Shown here in pieces: positions 471-22,387 of a DNA stretch of 45,353 nt. The DNA lies in assembly GCA_016926505.1 (NCBI GenBank), contig JAFGOM010000019.1, positions 1-45,353 of the forward strand. Direction: 5' to 3'. This DNA comes from Methanospirillaceae archaeon (GTDB taxonomy: Archaea > Halobacteriota > Methanomicrobia > Methanomicrobiales > Methanospirillaceae). Below the pieces are notes generated by a model. It worked only from the letters and a program-made list of their open reading frames with translations, was not told the origin of the DNA and searched no databases. Within the stretch, counting starts at the first letter, position 1; the number at the start of each line of letters is the position of its first letter. Both the position numbers and the translations under genes were made by a program.

Positions 471-1281
471 TTCCTATCAGACACCGGGAATCTTCACGGT
501 TAATCTCACGGTAGATGATGGCAGCGGGAGTGATGCCGCAACCGGTATCATTACCGTAAAGGAGGTCATGCAAAAAGAGACCTCCTCTCCCCTTCCTATT
601 CCCGGATCTCTCTCTGAAATCTCAGGGAAATCAGAAGACAGACGGGATACCGGGGATCAATCTGCCCTTGAAACAAAAACAGAACCCCCCTCACAAACCC
701 CTGTTCAGGCGTCGTTTACCGCTGACAGGAGATCTGGATATGTTCCCTTACCGGTAGTATTTACTGACACTTCGCAGGGCGATGTCAGACAATGGCACTG
801 GGATTTCGGTGACGGGGATGATGCGTACCATCAGCATCCCGGCCATACCTACAAAGACCCGGGGATATATGACGTTACTCTTGTGGTATCGGGAAATTAC
901 TCGTATTCATCACGGAAACACGAGGGATATATCGTGGTTTCACAACAACAGGGTCAGGATGAACCTGAGATGTTTCAGCCCCTCCTCGTTCAGGAACAGA
1001 ACCCTGAAACATACCCGGAAGAGGACGTACCCGGGGATATAAGAGCATCGTTTACCCAGAACCGCAGTCTGGGAAAGGTACCCTTTACGGTCATATTTAC
1101 CGATACATCCACCGGATCGGTGGAATGCCGGTACTGGTTTTTTGGTGATGACAGCAGTTCTTCTGAAAGAAACCCGATGCACACCTATCTCAAGAAAGGG
1201 ACATATTATGTCACGCTTTCTCTCTGTGATGACGGGTCTGTAACGACCAAAACCGCCAATAGTGTTGTATATGCAGTCTGA
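1..1281 (+). CDS. PKD-repeat surface protein, 5' truncated by the window edge
   Basis: The reading frame is open from base 1, so the true start and any signal peptide lie upstream. The visible part holds four PKD domains, each with the F-x-D-x-S block, the W-x-FGDG core and the closing Y-x-x-PG-x-Y/F pattern. The first two are almost identical to each other; the third and fourth are divergent and separated by low-complexity linkers rich in Ser, Pro, Glu and Gln. PKD domains are extracellular beta-sandwich modules common in Methanomicrobiales cell-surface proteins, where they probably mediate adhesion or spacing. No enzymatic domain and no C-terminal membrane anchor are visible before the stop, so the protein is either secreted or anchored through its missing N-terminal part. 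Confidence 0.85.
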   Translation: MTLEVTGPGGTDTASGEVMVSAPVVPPKASFITDRSFGEAPLMVAFADMSDGTIRSWNWSFGDGAVSSLQNPVHMYQNPGTYTITLEVTGSGGSDTVSGEVMVSAPVVPLKASFITDHSFGEAPLMVAFADMSDGTIRSWNWSFGDGEISSLQNPVHSYQTPGIFTVNLTVDDGSGSDAATGIITVKEVMQKETSSPLPIPGSLSEISGKSEDRRDTGDQSALETKTEPPSQTPVQASFTADRRSGYVPLPVVFTDTSQGDVRQWHWDFGDGDDAYHQHPGHTYKDPGIYDVTLVVSGNYSYSSRKHEGYIVVSQQQGQDEPEMFQPLLVQEQNPETYPEEDVPGDIRASFTQNRSLGKVPFTVIFTDTSTGSVECRYWFFGDDSSSSERNPMHTYLKKGTYYVTLSLCDDGSVTTKTANSVVYAV

Positions 1282-1431
1282 AACCGATGCAGGTTATCTC
1301 TGCTGATCAGGATCAGATCCCCCTTTATTGAGAATCTCCTCACGATTCTTTCCTGCTCATCTGCAACAGGAATCGGTAATTTTAAAAAAATCCGGAGTCT
1401 TCTTGTTCTTCGGAGACAAACCAGTAGTATC

Positions 1432-4032
1432 ATGAGAGCAAAGAATGCCGGTCCGGTTCTTCTCCCGGAACTCCTTGCTCCTGCAGGTTCATGGGACTGT
1501 CTGATCTCAGCAATAGCTGCTGGTGCAGATGCCGTGTATGCAGGGGGTCAGGCATTTGGGGCTCGTCAGTTTGCTCCCAATTTTGACAGGGAAACTCTGA
1601 AAAAAGCAGTTTTATTTGCTCACCTGCATGATGTCAGGATTTATATAACGGTCAATACACTTGTCAGTGAGGATGAACTGGAAAAGGTAGCAGAATATCT
1701 TTTTTTTCTGTATACGATCGGTGCAGATGCCATCTTAATCCAGGATACCGGTATTTTGGCACTGGCCAAAAGAATTATCCCTCAGATGCCGGTTCATGCC
1801 TCTACCCAGATGACCCTGCACTCGGTTGCAGGAGCACAATGGGCTGCAAAGATGGGATGTCTACGCATCGTTCTTCCCAGGGAACTGATAATGGATGAGG
1901 TCAGGCTGATACGGGAAGGAACCCTGGATTATAATCTCGGCCTTGAGGTATTTGTTCACGGGGCACTCTGCTACGGCTGGTCAGGTCAGTGCCTGTTATC
2001 TTCTGTCATCGGGGGAAGAAGTGGGAATCGTGGTATGTGTGCCCAGCCCTGTCGGAAACCCTATGAACTGGTTACCGGGATTCCTGACGAGTATGGCAGA
2101 CTTGTTTCTGCCACACCCCTAAAGACTTCTGATACCTATCTCCTCTCAACCCGGGATCTCTGTTGTTATGAGATTCTGGATCAGATCTGTTCTCTGCCGG
2201 TTGTCTCTTTAAAGATAGAGGGACGGATGCGATCACCCGGCTACGTGGCAACGGTCGTATCCTGCTACAGAAAAGCCCTTGATACAGTTGCAGAGAGTTG
2301 CTTTCTCTCTCAAAAAGAGGATATACAGGCCCTCTCTCTCTCATTTTCCCGGGGTTTTACCACAGGCTACCTTGCCATGAATGAGTCATCAGACGTCATG
2401 GGCAGGGATATGCCGGGAGATCGGGGGATTCTCGTTGGAACGGTATCAGATCGTGCCGGAACCGGGGGAGTGTATGTCAGGGGACAAGGACTGGATCACC
2501 TCTGTGCAGGTGACGGGCTGGTCTCTCTCCATGGAAGCGAGGAGCAGGGACTGGTCTTACGATCTGATTGCCCGTGCGTTAAAGGTGAGTTCCTGATCCC
2601 CTTCAAACCACCATGCGTAGCCGGAGATCCGGTATACCTGACCAGCAGAAGGGCATATACTGCCTCGGCTGAGCAGATCATAAAACAGGCCGGTTTGTAT
2701 TGCAAAAAGATCCCCCTCGATCTCTTTCTGCAGGTTAACCATGATGGCGTTATTACGGGAGAGGGAAAAATAACCTCCCGGATCGCCGGTACTGCTTTGT
2801 TTCAGTTTACCTCAACGATTATCATGGTTCCGGCTGAGAAAAAACCAGTTACCAGAGATTTTTTGATAACCCAGATTAAAAAGACCGGAAACACTCCTTT
2901 TATCATTCGTTCTTTCTCTCTTATATATGATGGGGGATTGTTTGCACCGGTACGTATGATAAACGAGATAAAAAGAGAGATTATTGCGAAAGCAGAAGAA
3001 ACACTTCATGCATCATGCACACCTGACACAACCCGGGTAACATGTGCAGAAAGCCGACTTAATCATCTCTTGCAGAGTGATTTTTTCAGAGTTCTTTCCA
3101 GTAATAATACGACTGAATCCCCCGATATTCCCCTTCCCCGTCTTATCGTTCTTACTGATAGTATTCCATCTGCCCGGGCAGCTCTCACTGCGAACGCTGA
3201 TATCATCTCATTTGAGTTTCTGCATCTCCCTGACCGGGATGAGATCAACCGGTTCTTTATGGAATGGACAACCGAAAAAGATCGTTTTGGTTCAGAACTC
3301 TATGTAAAACTCCCACGGATCCTGAGGGAGAAGGATAGTGCCAGGTTCTTTTCGTATCTCCCTTTCCTTGTCAGGACCGGTATCGGCGGAGTGATGGTTG
3401 ACAGTCACGGTCCTGCAGACCGCATTGCTCTCGCTGCACCGACACTCGACAGAATTGGCTATTACGGATTGCCGGTCTGTAATCACATGGCGGTTTCGGT
3501 ATTGGCAGAGTGTCTCAGTATGGTTACGATATCTCCTGAACTGACCCTGGACCAGATCTCATCCCTTGCACAGGCAGTACCTGATGCAGGAATTCCCTGT
3601 GCTCTTGGGATACTTGTCCAGGGTAGTATCGAGGCTCTCATCTCTTCAGACCTTCTTCTGTCCTGCATGGGTTGTGACAACTCCCCTGACCCGGTTTCAG
3701 CAGAAAGGGTGTATGGTATCCGTGATGAGAAGAATAGGATATTTTTGATACGGGAAGATCCGCTGCATCACACCCGTATCTATAATTCCGCAGAGACTAC
3801 CCTTATTGATTATCTCCCCCGGTTATACCGCTGTGGGATCTCATCCTTTATCATCGATGCCCGGGGCAGACCACCTGGTTACGTCTCTCTCATGATTGGA
3901 GTTTACCGGGCTGCAATTCAAAAACTACCTGATGAGAAACAATTTATCAGGGATTTAAAGGATGCAAAAAGAGAGATTGCAAAAGGTGTACAGGGCGGGA
4001 TGACTGCTGCTGCCATTACCCGGGGCTGGTAG
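1432..4032 (+). CDS. U32 family peptidase / RlhA-like protein with C-terminal extension
   Basis: The 866-residue product begins with the U32 hallmark LLAPAGSWD followed by AGADAVYAGG. The family signature lies near residues 168-187 (VHGALCYGWSGQC) and is followed by GMCAQPC. These four cysteines match those that hold an Fe-S cluster in UbiU/RlhA-type U32 proteins, some of which are RNA or ubiquinone hydroxylation factors rather than proteases. The length and the second half agree with the long U32-DUF3656 architecture. RlhA modifies 23S rRNA in bacteria, so an rRNA-modifying role is possible here, but that is inference. An A/T-rich stretch near 1378-1390 could be the promoter; no clear ribosome binding site precedes the ATG, suggesting a short leader. 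Confidence 0.85.
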   Translation: MRAKNAGPVLLPELLAPAGSWDCLISAIAAGADAVYAGGQAFGARQFAPNFDRETLKKAVLFAHLHDVRIYITVNTLVSEDELEKVAEYLFFLYTIGADAILIQDTGILALAKRIIPQMPVHASTQMTLHSVAGAQWAAKMGCLRIVLPRELIMDEVRLIREGTLDYNLGLEVFVHGALCYGWSGQCLLSSVIGGRSGNRGMCAQPCRKPYELVTGIPDEYGRLVSATPLKTSDTYLLSTRDLCCYEILDQICSLPVVSLKIEGRMRSPGYVATVVSCYRKALDTVAESCFLSQKEDIQALSLSFSRGFTTGYLAMNESSDVMGRDMPGDRGILVGTVSDRAGTGGVYVRGQGLDHLCAGDGLVSLHGSEEQGLVLRSDCPCVKGEFLIPFKPPCVAGDPVYLTSRRAYTASAEQIIKQAGLYCKKIPLDLFLQVNHDGVITGEGKITSRIAGTALFQFTSTIIMVPAEKKPVTRDFLITQIKKTGNTPFIIRSFSLIYDGGLFAPVRMINEIKREIIAKAEETLHASCTPDTTRVTCAESRLNHLLQSDFFRVLSSNNTTESPDIPLPRLIVLTDSIPSARAALTANADIISFEFLHLPDRDEINRFFMEWTTEKDRFGSELYVKLPRILREKDSARFFSYLPFLVRTGIGGVMVDSHGPADRIALAAPTLDRIGYYGLPVCNHMAVSVLAECLSMVTISPELTLDQISSLAQAVPDAGIPCALGILVQGSIEALISSDLLLSCMGCDNSPDPVSAERVYGIRDEKNRIFLIREDPLHHTRIYNSAETTLIDYLPRLYRCGISSFIIDARGRPPGYVSLMIGVYRAAIQKLPDEKQFIRDLKDAKREIAKGVQGGMTAAAITRGW

Positions 4033-4033
4033 T

Positions 4034-4072
4034 TCTGCCGTTTTTCGATTCTTTCTTTCCAAAACCGGCAGA
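4034..4072 (+). terminator. Imperfect hairpin just after the U32 gene
   Basis: TCTGCCG followed by TTTT pairs with AAAA and CGGCAGA, with one bulged C, directly after the stop codon. No long T-tract follows, so termination activity is uncertain. Confidence 0.4.
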
Positions 4073-4163
4073 TAACGAATAATCCGATATGAATCCAAAA
4101 CCCCGGTATTTCGTTCTGACGATACTTGGTTATGGACAGGGTGCGATAGTACTGTGAGAAGGT

Positions 4164-4832
4164 ATGAAAGCGCCAGTTATTCTTATTAACCTGAAAGCGT
4201 ACCGTGAATCAATCGGTCATGACGCACAACGCATTGCGGTAGCTGCCGAGGAGGTTGGGAAAGATGCAGGGGTTACGATGTGTATCGCTCCTATGTTTAT
4301 GGATATTCATCCGATGCGTCATCATTATGATCTTGAGGTATTTTCCCAGCACGTTGACCCTGTCGATCCCGGTGCATATACCGGGAGGATCTCTGCCCGT
4401 GCATTAAAAATAGCAGGAGCGACCGGGTCACTCGTGAATCATTCAGAATACCGGCAGACGATTGCAGATATTGAGCATTGTGTCAATGCACTGAAAACGG
4501 AAAAATTAACCTCGGTTGTCTGTTCCAATAACGTTGCGACATCAGCAGCTCTTGCGGTTCTGGGTCCTGATTATATTGCCATTGAACCCCCGGAACTGAT
4601 CGGCGGATCTGTCTCGGTCTCACAGGCAAACCCGGCTATCATCACTGATTCGGTTGAAGCGGTCAGAAAGGTTCGTGATGATGTCAGGCTTCTGACAGGA
4701 GCAGGTATCAATTCGGGTCAGTGTGTGAGGACCGCACTTGATCTTGGAACAGACGGGGTATTACTTGCTTCTAATGTGGTAAAAGCCAAAGATCCGGAAG
4801 CCGCCCTGCGCAATCTGGTCTCACTCCTGTGA
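4164..4832 (+). CDS. tpiA: Triosephosphate isomerase, archaeal type
   Basis: It interconverts dihydroxyacetone phosphate and glyceraldehyde 3-phosphate in the cytoplasm, serving gluconeogenesis in a methanogen. The 222-residue length is that of the short archaeal enzyme rather than the 250-residue bacterial and eukaryotic form. Visible catalytic landmarks are the substrate-binding lysine in LINLKAY, the electrophilic histidine in LVNHSEY, the catalytic glutamate in IEPPELIG and the phosphate-binding glycine motifs LTGAGINSG and GVLLASNVV near the C-terminus. A GAGAAGGT stretch immediately upstream supports the chosen ATG. It stands alone between the U32 gene and a convergent regulator. Confidence 0.95.
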   Translation: MKAPVILINLKAYRESIGHDAQRIAVAAEEVGKDAGVTMCIAPMFMDIHPMRHHYDLEVFSQHVDPVDPGAYTGRISARALKIAGATGSLVNHSEYRQTIADIEHCVNALKTEKLTSVVCSNNVATSAALAVLGPDYIAIEPPELIGGSVSVSQANPAIITDSVEAVRKVRDDVRLLTGAGINSGQCVRTALDLGTDGVLLASNVVKAKDPEAALRNLVSLL

Positions 4833-11453: not shown

Positions 11454-12356
11454 TTACTTCTTCTGGATCTCGTTTATGACTTCCCGGTGAAACGAGACGA
11501 TCATGTCTGCCAGAACTCCGAACATAAAGATCTGGAACCCGAACATCACAAACGTTACCGCAAGAATGGTGAGCGGAAGGTGATCGATTCGTGCAAACCA
11601 TTCAATCATGACATAGATACCCATCCCGATCCCGGTAATCATCAGGATAAGGCCGACGAATCCAAAGTAAAAGAGAGGATTGTTGACCCGTGCCAGACGG
11701 TATATCGTCTTTGCGATCCGGCATCCGTCTTTTATCGGTCGTAACTTGGTCTTTGTTCCCGGACGTTTCCCGTATGAGACCGGAACCACGGTTACACAGG
11801 CCCCAATCCTGACCGCTTCAGATATCAGTTCGGTCTCGATACCAAACCCGGTCTCGGAAAGGTGCATCTTTTGAATGGATTCTTTCGTAAATGCACGGTA
11901 TCCTGAGAGAATATCATAGTAATATACCCCATGTCCCATCTTGAAGAGATTATTTAAGATATAATTGCCGGTACGGTTCAGTCGGCTGATCGCCGATACA
12001 TTGGTATGGGTCAGCCGGTTCCCGATAACCTGGTCAGAACCGGTCAGGAGGGGTTCTAACATGGGGATTGCATCGTCAGGTGAGTAGGTCCCGTCCCCGT
12101 CGACCATGAGAATATAGGGTTTCTCAATAAGAGAAAACGCCTGTATGACCGCTGTTCCTTTCCCTTTTCCCTTCTGGATTACTACACGGGCCCCGGCTTT
12201 TTCTGCCAGCTCCTGGGTCTTGTCTGTGCTGTTGCCATCGATAACAAGGATATCTGAGAACCCCATCCCTTTAAATTCAGAAATAAGCAACCCGATGGTC
12301 GGTTCCTCGTTGAGAGTGGGAATCAGAATACAGACATTATCCCTGTTTATATCCAT
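11454..12356 (-). CDS. aglJ: Family 2 glycosyltransferase, AglJ-like (polyprenyl-phosphate sugar transferase)
   Basis: The 300-residue protein starts with the GT2 nucleotide-sugar fold: CILIPTLNEEPTIG, ILVIDGNSTDKT, then the DGDGTYSPDD acidic motif near residue 90. It ends with two hydrophobic segments at about 225-250 and 258-285. This architecture matches the archaeal AglJ group, which loads the first hexose onto dolichol phosphate for N-glycosylation of S-layer or archaellum proteins. The lipid carrier could come from the cis-prenyltransferases encoded at 20.7-22.4 kb. The start is 39 bp from the divergent DUF99 gene, so both promoters are squeezed around the 10-bp palindrome TAAAGCTTTA at 12361-12370. 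The precise sugar is unknown. Confidence 0.75.
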   Translation of the reverse strand: MDINRDNVCILIPTLNEEPTIGLLISEFKGMGFSDILVIDGNSTDKTQELAEKAGARVVIQKGKGKGTAVIQAFSLIEKPYILMVDGDGTYSPDDAIPMLEPLLTGSDQVIGNRLTHTNVSAISRLNRTGNYILNNLFKMGHGVYYYDILSGYRAFTKESIQKMHLSETGFGIETELISEAVRIGACVTVVPVSYGKRPGTKTKLRPIKDGCRIAKTIYRLARVNNPLFYFGFVGLILMITGIGMGIYVMIEWFARIDHLPLTILAVTFVMFGFQIFMFGVLADMIVSFHREVINEIQKK

Positions 12357-19642: not shown

Positions 19643-19694
19643 CGATAAGGTTTTATTATTTCCGGGAAAATTGTTTACAGCAATCTGGATTTCT

Positions 19695-20708
19695 ATGGAA
19701 GAGAGCACTTCAGAAGATAAACCCCCCCATCAAAGATTAATAAAAGGCTGTATCCTCTGTCACCAGGGTGCAAAACTGGTTCTTTTTATCACCGGGTTAT
19801 GTAAACGGGATTGCTGGTACTGTCCTCTCTCGTCTGATCGCAAGAACAGGGATCGGATCTTTGCCAATGAACACGAGATCACCACTCCATCTGACTGTAT
19901 TGCGGTAGCAGAGCGGATGTCAGCGCTCGGAACCGGCATAACCGGCGGTGAACCGTTTCTTGTGCCAGAACGCCTTGTTTTGTATGCAACCCGTCTGAAA
20001 GAGAGATTTGGGAAAGAACATCATATCCATCTCTACTCCGGGATAGCACCTGACCAGGAACAGTTGCAGATAATAAAAGGGATTGTGGATGAGATTCGGT
20101 TGCATCCTCCGCAGGAGCACTGGGAACATATCAGGGAGAGTCCGTATTATCATTCGGTCCTTGCGGCGAGGGATATGGGATTTACAGCCGGGTTTGAGGT
20201 ACCGTCACTCCCGGGCCTGGATCACCTGGCCATCGTATGTGATGATCTCGATCTCTGTAACATCAATGAACTTGAATGGGGAGAGAGTAATGCAGATCAT
20301 ATGCGACGGAAGGGATATGAGCCGGCAGACAGTTGTCACAATGCGGTAAAAGGAGCGTATCTGCATGCAGAGACGATAAAGGATCTGCCGAATGTTCACT
20401 TCTGTTCATCGGAATTCAAAGACAGCGTGCAGCTTCGAAATCGTCTCCTTCGCATTGCTCATAATACCGCACGTCCTTTTGACGAGATAACCGGGGATGG
20501 AACGGTGATCTATGGCGTTCTTGAAACAAACTCTTCTCAACCACAACTAAACGATGTAATTGATCCGGAATTGTATATGATCTTTGATGACCGGGTAGAG
20601 ATGGCCTGGTGGATCCTTGAAGAGAATGCATCCACACTGCCCGGAAAAAAATATATCATCGAGCGTTATCCTGACGAAGGAACCGTGATGGAGGTGACAC
20701 CCCTATGA
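19695..20708 (+). CDS. Radical SAM protein (COG2108-like)
   Basis: The 337-residue enzyme carries the radical SAM motif in the form CKRDCWYC (CxxxCxxC), preceded by a CILC pair near the N-terminus. The Gly-rich TGGEPFL SAM-binding segment follows. It resembles the archaeal COG2108 group, related to activating enzymes of pyruvate formate-lyase but with no assigned substrate. The frame continues upstream to a TTG, but the ATG at 19695 starts the conserved sequence and is preferred. Its last four bases overlap the uppS start (ATGA), so the two are co-translated. A role in modifying isoprenoid or a lipid-linked intermediate would fit that coupling but is speculative. Confidence 0.8.
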   Translation: MEESTSEDKPPHQRLIKGCILCHQGAKLVLFITGLCKRDCWYCPLSSDRKNRDRIFANEHEITTPSDCIAVAERMSALGTGITGGEPFLVPERLVLYATRLKERFGKEHHIHLYSGIAPDQEQLQIIKGIVDEIRLHPPQEHWEHIRESPYYHSVLAARDMGFTAGFEVPSLPGLDHLAIVCDDLDLCNINELEWGESNADHMRRKGYEPADSCHNAVKGAYLHAETIKDLPNVHFCSSEFKDSVQLRNRLLRIAHNTARPFDEITGDGTVIYGVLETNSSQPQLNDVIDPELYMIFDDRVEMAWWILEENASTLPGKKYIIERYPDEGTVMEVTPL

Positions 20709-21472
20709 GTTTCAGGTCTCTCCTAGAACCGTTATATGAACAGCGGGTGATTCATCAGTGTAAATATATCCCGAAACACGTGGCGCTTATCCTTGATGGA
20801 AACCGGCGGTTTGCACGAATGATGGGTTTTGCAACCACCCTTGGTCACCGGGCAGGAGCTGATCGGATAGAGGAGATGCTTGAGTGGGCCCATGACCTGG
20901 GTATCAGGTACCTGACGCTCTATACCTTCTCAACAGAAAATTTTAAGCGGAGTGAGGAGGAGGTGCGGGATCTCTTTGATCTCTTCAAAGAACGACTGAA
21001 CCGGATCAGGGAAGACGATCGGGTCTTTCGGTTCGGGATACGAATCCAGATAATCGGGGATCGCGAACTCCTTCCTTGTGATCTCATCGATCTCATTAAC
21101 GAGGTCGAGACCGCTACCGCGCATCATGATAACTTCTTCCTGAATGTTGCCCTTGCATACGGGGGACGCAATGAGATACTTCAGGCAAGCAGAAAGATAT
21201 TGCGTGACGTCCGGGAAAAACGAATCACAAAGGATGATATTACTCCGCAGCTCCTTGAAGAGAACCTGTACGGGAAGGCCTCAATTCCCCCGGTTGATCT
21301 CATCATCCGTACCGGTGATGAATGCAGAACATCAAATTTCCTTCCATGGCTCGCAAACGGTCACGAATCTGCGGTATATTTCTGCGCTCCGTTCTGGCCG
21401 ATGTTTCGGAAACTGGATCTCTTACGGGCAACACGGTTGTATTCCCGGCGGATAGAACTCTCCCGGGGATAG
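20705..21472 (+). CDS. uppS: cis-Prenyltransferase (polyprenyl diphosphate synthase), catalytic type
   Basis: It elongates a prenyl diphosphate with isopentenyl diphosphate in cis, giving the long polyprenol (dolichol-type) carrier for glycan assembly at the membrane. All catalytic blocks are visible in the 255-residue protein. HVALILDGNRR contains the metal-binding Asp31. TLYTFSTENFKR, LAYGGRNEI and IIRTGDECRTSNFLPW (both pyrophosphate-binding arginines and the serine) follow, then the YFCAPFWP region. The C-terminal RxG tripeptide that contacts IPP in single-subunit enzymes is not at its expected place, where the tail reads ELSRG. It is translationally coupled to the radical SAM gene and convergent with a second homologue at 21605-22387. 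Confidence 0.93.
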   Translation: MSFRSLLEPLYEQRVIHQCKYIPKHVALILDGNRRFARMMGFATTLGHRAGADRIEEMLEWAHDLGIRYLTLYTFSTENFKRSEEEVRDLFDLFKERLNRIREDDRVFRFGIRIQIIGDRELLPCDLIDLINEVETATAHHDNFFLNVALAYGGRNEILQASRKILRDVREKRITKDDITPQLLEENLYGKASIPPVDLIIRTGDECRTSNFLPWLANGHESAVYFCAPFWPMFRKLDLLRATRLYSRRIELSRG

Positions 21473-21485
21473 AGAGATAATGGCT

Positions 21486-21503
21486 GATGGCAGTCATGCC
21501 ATC
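21486..21503. terminator. Hairpin between the two convergent cis-prenyltransferase genes
   Basis: GATGGCA-GTCA-TGCCATC is a perfect 7-bp stem with a 4-nt loop, 14 bp after the uppS stop and about 100 bp after the end of the opposite gene. It may act as a terminator for uppS, although no T-run follows. Confidence 0.4.
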
Positions 21504-21604
21504 CATCCACTCACATTTGTTACGACTCGTGCGTTACCGCTTATAAGAGATGAAGGCTAATTCTATCAGAATCGGAAAAATGATGCATTTCACTCCCCTG
21601 CACG

Positions 21605-22387
21605 TTAGGTGCCATATCTCCGTATCCTGTCCTGATAATCCCGCAGTGCCCGTAAGATGTCAATCCTTCTCATTGAATCCCAGTCCATGTCAGTGAAATA
21701 TAACTCTGAATAGACCGATTGCCAGATGAGGAAATCGGTCAGATGGCTTGCACCTGTCTTTATCACAAAATCCGGAGTATACTGAAAGGTCAGGTACGAC
21801 TCAAGCAGGTGATCATCAAGTTCGTCAGGAGAGATCTCATCGTCAGCCATCTTTTTAATCGCATCAATAATCTCTCCGCGACCGCTCTTGCCGATGGCAA
21901 TCGTCACCGGCATACCGGAACCGGACTCCTGTATCTGATCTTTGTAATGAAGGTACAGGTGGGCGAATGAGGAGATACGGGACAGGGCAGGTAACCAGAT
22001 CTCAAATCCGCCCTGGTCATTGGTATCGATATGGAAGGTGATACCTGATATCGGGTTACAACCGGGATTATGGCTGCAGACATATTTTGAGATGGCAATC
22101 AACCATTCCGTCACAAGAGCAGGCTTATTCGGGTTATGAGATAAATCATCCCTGGTAATCATAAAACAAAGGTTTCCCGGCAGTTTTTTTAACCCTGAAA
22201 GAAGGTGCCACTCATACAGACAATAGATCAAATGATGCTCCCCCACCCGTTCTGTACCGAGAATTCTCTTTAGATTCGTGCAATCCTGTGCAATCTCTAT
22301 CAATCGTTCTGGTATAAACCTTCTTTTATATCTCTTTTTTCTGGCAGATATATATGCAGGATACACAGATTCCCATACGGGTGACAC
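21605..22387 (-). CDS. cis-Prenyltransferase homologue lacking catalytic residues (NgBR-like subunit)
   Basis: The 260-residue protein starts at GTG. Its second half aligns with UppS: IGKSGRGEIIDA for the YGGRNEI block, DFVIKTGASHLTDFLIWQ for the IIRTGDECRTSNFLPW block and SELYFTDMDWD for the YF...W block. The catalytic aspartate block is replaced (PGNLCFMITRDD), and the two pyrophosphate-binding arginines are Lys or absent. It therefore should not be active alone. Its last residues, R257-Y-G259, restore the C-terminal RxG motif that the neighbouring catalytic enzyme lacks. This is the same division as in eukaryotic DHDDS/NgBR, and a heteromeric cis-prenyltransferase has been reported in Methanosarcina mazei. 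An N-terminal extension of about 75 residues precedes the homologous part. Confidence 0.75.
   Translation of the reverse strand: MSPVWESVYPAYISARKKRYKRRFIPERLIEIAQDCTNLKRILGTERVGEHHLIYCLYEWHLLSGLKKLPGNLCFMITRDDLSHNPNKPALVTEWLIAISKYVCSHNPGCNPISGITFHIDTNDQGGFEIWLPALSRISSFAHLYLHYKDQIQESGSGMPVTIAIGKSGRGEIIDAIKKMADDEISPDELDDHLLESYLTFQYTPDFVIKTGASHLTDFLIWQSVYSELYFTDMDWDSMRRIDILRALRDYQDRIRRYGT

Follow-up and report, generated by a model that had tools for sequence, protein, structure and literature searches.

Two convergent genes of a Methanospirillaceae archaeon as predicted subunits of one DHDDS/NgBR-type cis-prenyltransferase

Introduction

Two genes for cis-prenyltransferases, facing one another in the genome of a Methanospirillaceae archaeon, raise the question of whether they encode two separate enzymes or the two halves of a single one. 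They lie in a stretch of 45,353 nucleotides (contig JAFGOM010000019.1 of assembly GCA_016926505.1), which as a whole is here called the window. To our knowledge, two-subunit cis-prenyltransferases are usually called eukaryotic, with one archaeal report; in humans, mutations of the two subunits, DHDDS and NgBR, cause glycosylation disorders and retinitis pigmentosa. The reading that we develop below, and hold to be very likely on the sequence evidence, is that the two genes encode the subunits of one heteromeric DHDDS/NgBR-type cis-prenyltransferase, which would make the lipid carrier for N-glycosylation. It rests on homology, motif complementarity, co-occurrence, orthology with a pair of genes in Methanosarcina mazei and a conserved facing arrangement, and it is from these that we infer the physical complex, its activity, its chain length and its pathway.

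Two homologous genes sharing one set of motifs

The initial annotation had described two facing cis-prenyltransferase genes, and both open reading frames are indeed found convergent, one at 20705-21472 on the plus strand and the other ending at 21605 on the minus strand, with an intergenic region of 132 bp (21473-21604) between them. Both products match the cis-prenyltransferase profile PF01255 above its curated cut-off of 27 bits (226 bits for the plus-strand and 76.3 bits for the minus-strand protein), and the two are homologous to one another (BLASTP E = 1e-10, 32% identity over 105 aa). The genome to which the window belongs (2.94 Mb, 99.97% complete) has no PF01255 gene besides these two.

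The plus-strand gene encodes a DHDDS-like protein of 255 aa, the putative catalytic subunit, the best PDB sequence match of which is DHDDS. Its cis-prenyltransferase domain is complete apart from the C-terminal RxG motif: the match covers positions 1-214 of the 219 in the profile, leaving the C-terminal end unmatched, and the last residues of the protein, SRRIELSRG, offer no RxG where one would align. The DGNRR motif with the catalytic Asp31 (20795-20809, plus strand) and the RTGDECRTSNF block with Arg202 and Arg208 (21308-21340, plus strand) were both reported at the outset, together with the missing RxG, and the sequence and an alignment of 72 homologues bear this out, since all five residues of DGNRR and both arginines of the block are present in 72/72. 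In the numbering of E. coli UppS, the sequence of which was confirmed at 100% against the PDB, residues D26, N28, R30, N74, R77, R194 and R200 are invariant among the 72 catalytic homologues, while R242 and G244 occur together in none of them. Likewise, the catalytic matches in the 135 genomes of the order Methanomicrobiales all stop at profile position 214-218, never at 219.

Two peculiarities of catalytic genes elsewhere in the order and phylum deserve mention on their own account. The catalytic proteins of Methanoculleus (loci L063, L089, L101, L108, L111 and L112) carry R-R-G, R-Q-G or R-W-G at their ends, in tails placed about 7 residues past the canonical position, and the normal partner is still there; among the catalytic homologues, tails of this non-canonical kind occur in this genus alone. 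In one family (f5; loci L009, L010, L019, L021, L025 and L030) no ATG, GTG or TTG is present around the place where the catalytic gene should begin, and the frame is nevertheless conserved, so that a rare start codon is possible.

The minus-strand gene (21605-22231), assigned from PF01255 and the alignment of homologues, encodes the putative non-catalytic, NgBR/NUS1-like partner. Its match to PF01255 spans profile positions 109-219, that is, the C-terminal half only, and its profile matches NUS1 chains across positions 12-208 (E ~2e-5). Here the sequence CFMITRD replaces DGN and KTGASHL replaces RTGxxxR, the first five residues of the former (CFMIT, 22154-22168, minus strand) occupying the place of the DGN loop in degenerate form. 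DGN itself is absent from 70/70 partner homologues; in seven partners an isolated Asp stands at position 26, but the rest of the motif is missing. The protein ends in RRYGT, which contains the R-Y-G version of the RxG motif (21611-21619, minus strand), and in the homologues G244 is found in 70/70, with R242 in 69 and K in the remaining one. This C-terminus and FLIWQSVYSELYF (21695-21733, minus strand), which in the alignment falls on the subunit-contact region as described for the human complex in PMC7573591, are the most conserved parts of the partner family, and conservation follows exactly the C-terminal half that corresponds to that of human NgBR, the N-terminal half being degenerate. The complementary loss proposed for the pair, by analogy with DHDDS and NgBR, holds strictly in all 72 catalytic proteins and all 70 partners. 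With DGN in 0/70, the idea that the partner is another active enzyme was rejected, and annotating it as one more 'undecaprenyl diphosphate synthase' should be avoided. A retained Glu213 was also considered as part of the split, but both subunits prove to have Glu when the alignment admits a two-residue insertion behind it, and the idea was given up.

The loss of the catalytic residues from the minus-strand homologue and the RYG at its aligned end thus hold as originally described, but the numbering R257-Y-G259 does not, since it assumes a protein of 260 aa from GTG 22387. The alignment suggests that translation probably starts at TTG 22231, giving 208 aa. All of the 27 partner homologues in the first alignment begin at the position of TTG 22231, and their N-termini (M-I/L/F-x-x-L/F/I-Y-E/A) align with LIYCLYE of the window protein read from this codon, 6 nt upstream of which is the Shine-Dalgarno-like GGGGGAG (22238-22244, minus strand). 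The GTG start is less likely, as its extra 52 residues have no counterpart in the homologues. With the start moved to TTG 22231, the RxG becomes R205-Y-G207 of 208 aa. A still shorter form is seen in one family (f15; loci L213 and L214 in genomes G151 and G143), in which the partner has 164-168 aa with little of the N-terminal half and ends in ERRFGR or DRRFGA; judged by its sequence, this could represent a minimal NgBR-like subunit.

Co-occurrence in the order and the phylum

Whether the pairing is obligate can be approached by asking how often one gene occurs without the other. Within the order, at least two PF01255 matches are present in 133/135 genomes; one of the two exceptions (90% complete) has a single partner-like match and the other has none, so that a catalytic gene alone was seen in none of the 135. 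In a wider draw of 296 genomes from the phylum, 294 have matches to the partner profile, including every one of the 75 that belong to the order (E < 1e-67). Among 44 genomes chosen across the families of the phylum, 42 carry a single gene of each kind, catalytic and partner, and the pair is present in every sampled family except one (f12), in the two genomes of which (G140 and G148, ~91% complete) no PF01255 gene was found. The survey thus agrees with the obligate pairing originally proposed: no catalytic gene stands without its partner in the order, and all 42 of the phylum genomes studied in detail that have the enzyme have both; nor did any relative surveyed combine a catalytic protein bearing its own RxG with the absence of the second gene. 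From these sequence matches, the heteromer appears to be the rule in the whole phylum.

A search of the literature found no paper describing phylum-wide pairing, and a phylogeny of 2016 noted 'distant paralogues' among the euryarchaeal sequences, left without interpretation. The phylum-wide pairing, the conserved convergent order and the radical SAM neighbour described below are new, whereas the heteromer in M. mazei was already known.

Gene order and the radical SAM neighbour

In the window the two genes are, as first noted, neighbours, convergent and 132 bp apart, and this arrangement is general in the order. Both genes are present in 73 of the 80 named Methanomicrobiales loci, invariably (73/73) tail to tail; the distance between them spans -14 to 3917 bp and is often 7-30 bp or a 14-bp overlap. 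Of the other seven, five have a contig end at most 1.7 kb from the partner and two have no catalytic gene within 6 kb. Other families contribute 13 more genomes in which the genes converge, at distances of as much as about 8 kb (coordinates compared by eye); the arrangement is thus probably old, and the tail-to-tail order probably ancestral. Adjacency is not required, since the genes are far apart in several lineages, including Methanosarcina; in Archaeoglobaceae-like genomes the catalytic and partner genes are on different contigs.

The catalytic gene has a constant neighbour of its own, a gene for a radical SAM protein (19671-20708, plus strand), the 3' end of which overlaps it by 4 bp. Its product belongs to no assigned family, and its PF04055 score, 29.2 bits, is just below the profile cut-off. 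In 69/69 named Methanomicrobiales loci holding both, the radical SAM gene immediately precedes the catalytic gene on the same strand, and in several other methanogen-type families one is found a few hundred bases upstream of the catalytic gene; none was found beside the catalytic gene in haloarchaea-like or Archaeoglobaceae-like loci. That the radical SAM protein modifies the polyprenyl chain is a guess.

The orthologous pair of Methanosarcina mazei

According to the summary given in PMC8131916, MM_0618 and MM_1083 of M. mazei form a heteromeric cis-prenyltransferase with C45-50 products (Emi et al. 2019, pmid 31594637) and are the likely source of the glycosyl carrier lipid, while a third protein, MM_0014, which ends in TLGG, is an active homodimer without RxG. 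Genome G392 was recognised as that of M. mazei by a gene matching MM_0014 at 100% identity; besides this gene it has exactly two with PF01255. One of these encodes a protein with DGN and no RxG, 50% identical to the window catalytic protein over 232 aa; the other encodes a protein ending in RRYGK, 48% identical to the window partner over 109 aa of the C-terminal half. The two are 0.55 Mb apart and lie 0.77 and 1.32 Mb from the MM_0014 gene. Since this genome bears MM_0014 and only two further PF01255 genes, the orthologues are by elimination MM_0618 and MM_1083, and elimination together with gene distance suggests that MM_0618 is the catalytic subunit and MM_1083 the partner. The comparison with the M. 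mazei heteromer, as that enzyme is summarised in PMC8131916, had been drawn from the start and is strengthened here, the window genes being orthologous to its pair and falling in the same clades. A third paralogue ending in TLGG, a relative of MM_0014 outside the Methanosarcina family, was observed in genome G135 (locus L222, 569-1267, minus strand).

Link to N-glycosylation and proposed mechanism

The proposed function had been connected with an AglJ-like gene at 11.5 kb. The identity of that gene as AglJ is confirmed (11454-12356; TIGR04182, 441 bits), but it is 9 kb away and unlinked to the pair; the same genome has two STT3/AglB genes. In the family that lacks the pair (the two f12 genomes, ~91% complete) neither STT3 nor cis-prenyltransferase genes were found, which probably reflects loss of N-glycosylation. 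Five genomes of a single genus (f21 g55, probably Archaeoglobus) have the partner gene about 0.3-0.5 kb upstream of an STT3/AglB gene on the same strand; in locus L235, for example, the partner is at 3686-4366 and AglB/STT3 at 676-3345, both on the minus strand. Taken from gene content and position, these data support a link of the pair to N-glycosylation and are consistent with it, short of proof.

The enzyme that we envisage would then work as follows. The plus-strand product would use Asp31 to bind Mg and the allylic diphosphate, and would carry out cis condensations with IPP; it lacks the RxG tail that homodimeric enzymes use for closing the site. The minus-strand product, predicted to be catalytically dead while keeping the dimer-contact region, would by homology with NgBR reach across the dimer, such that its C-terminal R-x-G completes the IPP site of the plus-strand subunit. 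A product of probably about C45-50, the length reported for M. mazei, would then be turned into a dolichol-type phosphate carrier for AglJ and AglB.

Alternative readings

The features described above could be read differently, and it is convenient to weigh the alternatives together. The plus-strand gene might encode a self-sufficient homodimer without RxG, the minus-strand gene being a separate regulator or a decaying pseudo-enzyme. MM_0014, active as a homodimer without RxG, shows that the motif is not indispensable in every member, and yeast Nus1 likewise lacks a canonical RxG. Yet MM_0014 has its own TLGG tail instead, for which the window catalytic protein has no equivalent, the partner, which accompanies the catalytic gene, is strongly constrained in every family precisely at its contact region and RxG, and the summary in PMC8131916 describes the M. 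mazei pair as one heteromeric enzyme. We regard this reading as very improbable.

Somewhat less remote, though still unlikely, are two proposals that leave the heteromer itself in place. The lipid could serve another use, such as S-layer anchoring or exopolysaccharide, rather than act as the N-glycan carrier, and in the window the pair is indeed outside any operon with N-glycosylation genes, AglJ being 9 kb off. Against this, the pair is the only source of cis-prenyltransferase in a genome that has AglJ and two AglB genes, it is absent jointly with STT3 in one family, and the partner lies upstream of AglB in Archaeoglobaceae-like genomes; moreover, a polyprenyl carrier may serve several pathways, which makes the other use an addition rather than an alternative. 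Similarly, the facing arrangement might be functional in itself, antisense transcripts or overlapping 3' UTRs balancing the subunits, and not a relic of an ancestral tail-to-tail tandem. Its constancy in the named loci, the frequent short gaps or overlap and its recurrence in other families would suit such a role, but gaps reach 3.9 kb, the pair is unlinked in Methanosarcinaceae and Archaeoglobaceae-like genomes, and no terminator-like stem was found between the two genes in the window. The reading as two subunits of one enzyme for the N-glycosylation lipid carrier is therefore the one that we retain.

Ancestry of the heteromer

Two trees, with 62 and 67 proteins, each separate a catalytic clade (support 94/94 and 93/85, respectively) from a partner clade (96/88 and 100/99), and each clade of the larger tree includes its M. 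mazei sequence. As catalytic and partner proteins form separate clades, the duplication predates the radiation of the phylum. The place of NgBR is less firm: in the 62-protein tree it stands beside the partners at 90/85, but its branch is long, 4.4 changes per column, and the AU test rejects neither its grouping with DHDDS (p = 0.22) nor its placement with the catalytic clade (p = 0.32). Descent of NgBR from an archaeal partner is a live possibility. A stronger version, in which eukaryotes inherited the heteromer ready-made from archaea, through a single split before the ancestor of the phylum and in the eukaryote line, with NgBR as the direct descendant of the partner, is in our view doubtful. 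The origin of the eukaryotic complex in any case becomes testable by asking whether Asgard archaea have the same pair. On the present evidence the split is general in an archaeal phylum and predates it.

Comparison with known systems

The human complex shows the same split, a catalytic subunit without RxG being joined to a dead subunit with a C-terminal RxG. There the C-terminus of NgBR crosses the interface, its L291 and G292 binding the S2 phosphate and R290 being placed between the two substrate sites, and the site region of NgBR itself has no cavity (PMC7573591). Single-chain structure models of the window proteins (pLDDT 85.5 for the catalytic and 83.8 for the partner protein) point in the same direction. 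The first fold matches of the catalytic model are DHDDS chains, represented by chain A of the human complex (query TM 0.82, rmsd 2.9), and the first match of the partner model is the NgBR chain 7pb1_B, a loose fit (TM 0.54, rmsd 5.7) in which NgBR and UppS are about equally close (TM 0.5-0.6, rmsd 5-7 A). The likeness to DHDDS and NgBR initially suggested is thus favoured chain by chain in the models. The degenerate loop of NgBR, GLVITE, has ITE where the archaeal partners have IT/IS-x-D/E. On the other hand, the archaeal partner lacks the N-terminal membrane segment of NgBR, and the window catalytic protein lacks the C-terminal helix-turn-helix extension of DHDDS; archaeal pairs could serve as small models of the DHDDS/NgBR complex without a membrane anchor.

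The bacterial homodimeric UppS has the fold and catalytic residues of the plus-strand protein, but unites in one chain the Asp26 and RxG that the window pair divides between two. MM_0014 and MA1831 are, like the window catalytic protein, archaeal cis-prenyltransferases without RxG; they differ in forming a homodimer, in their TLGG tail and promiscuous acceptor use, and in falling outside both clades of the window pair. The closest counterpart is MM_0618 with MM_1083 of M. mazei, which has the same motif split and belongs to the same clades, whereas its genes are 0.55 Mb apart rather than adjacent and tail to tail, and its genome includes the third paralogue, MM_0014, that the window genome lacks.
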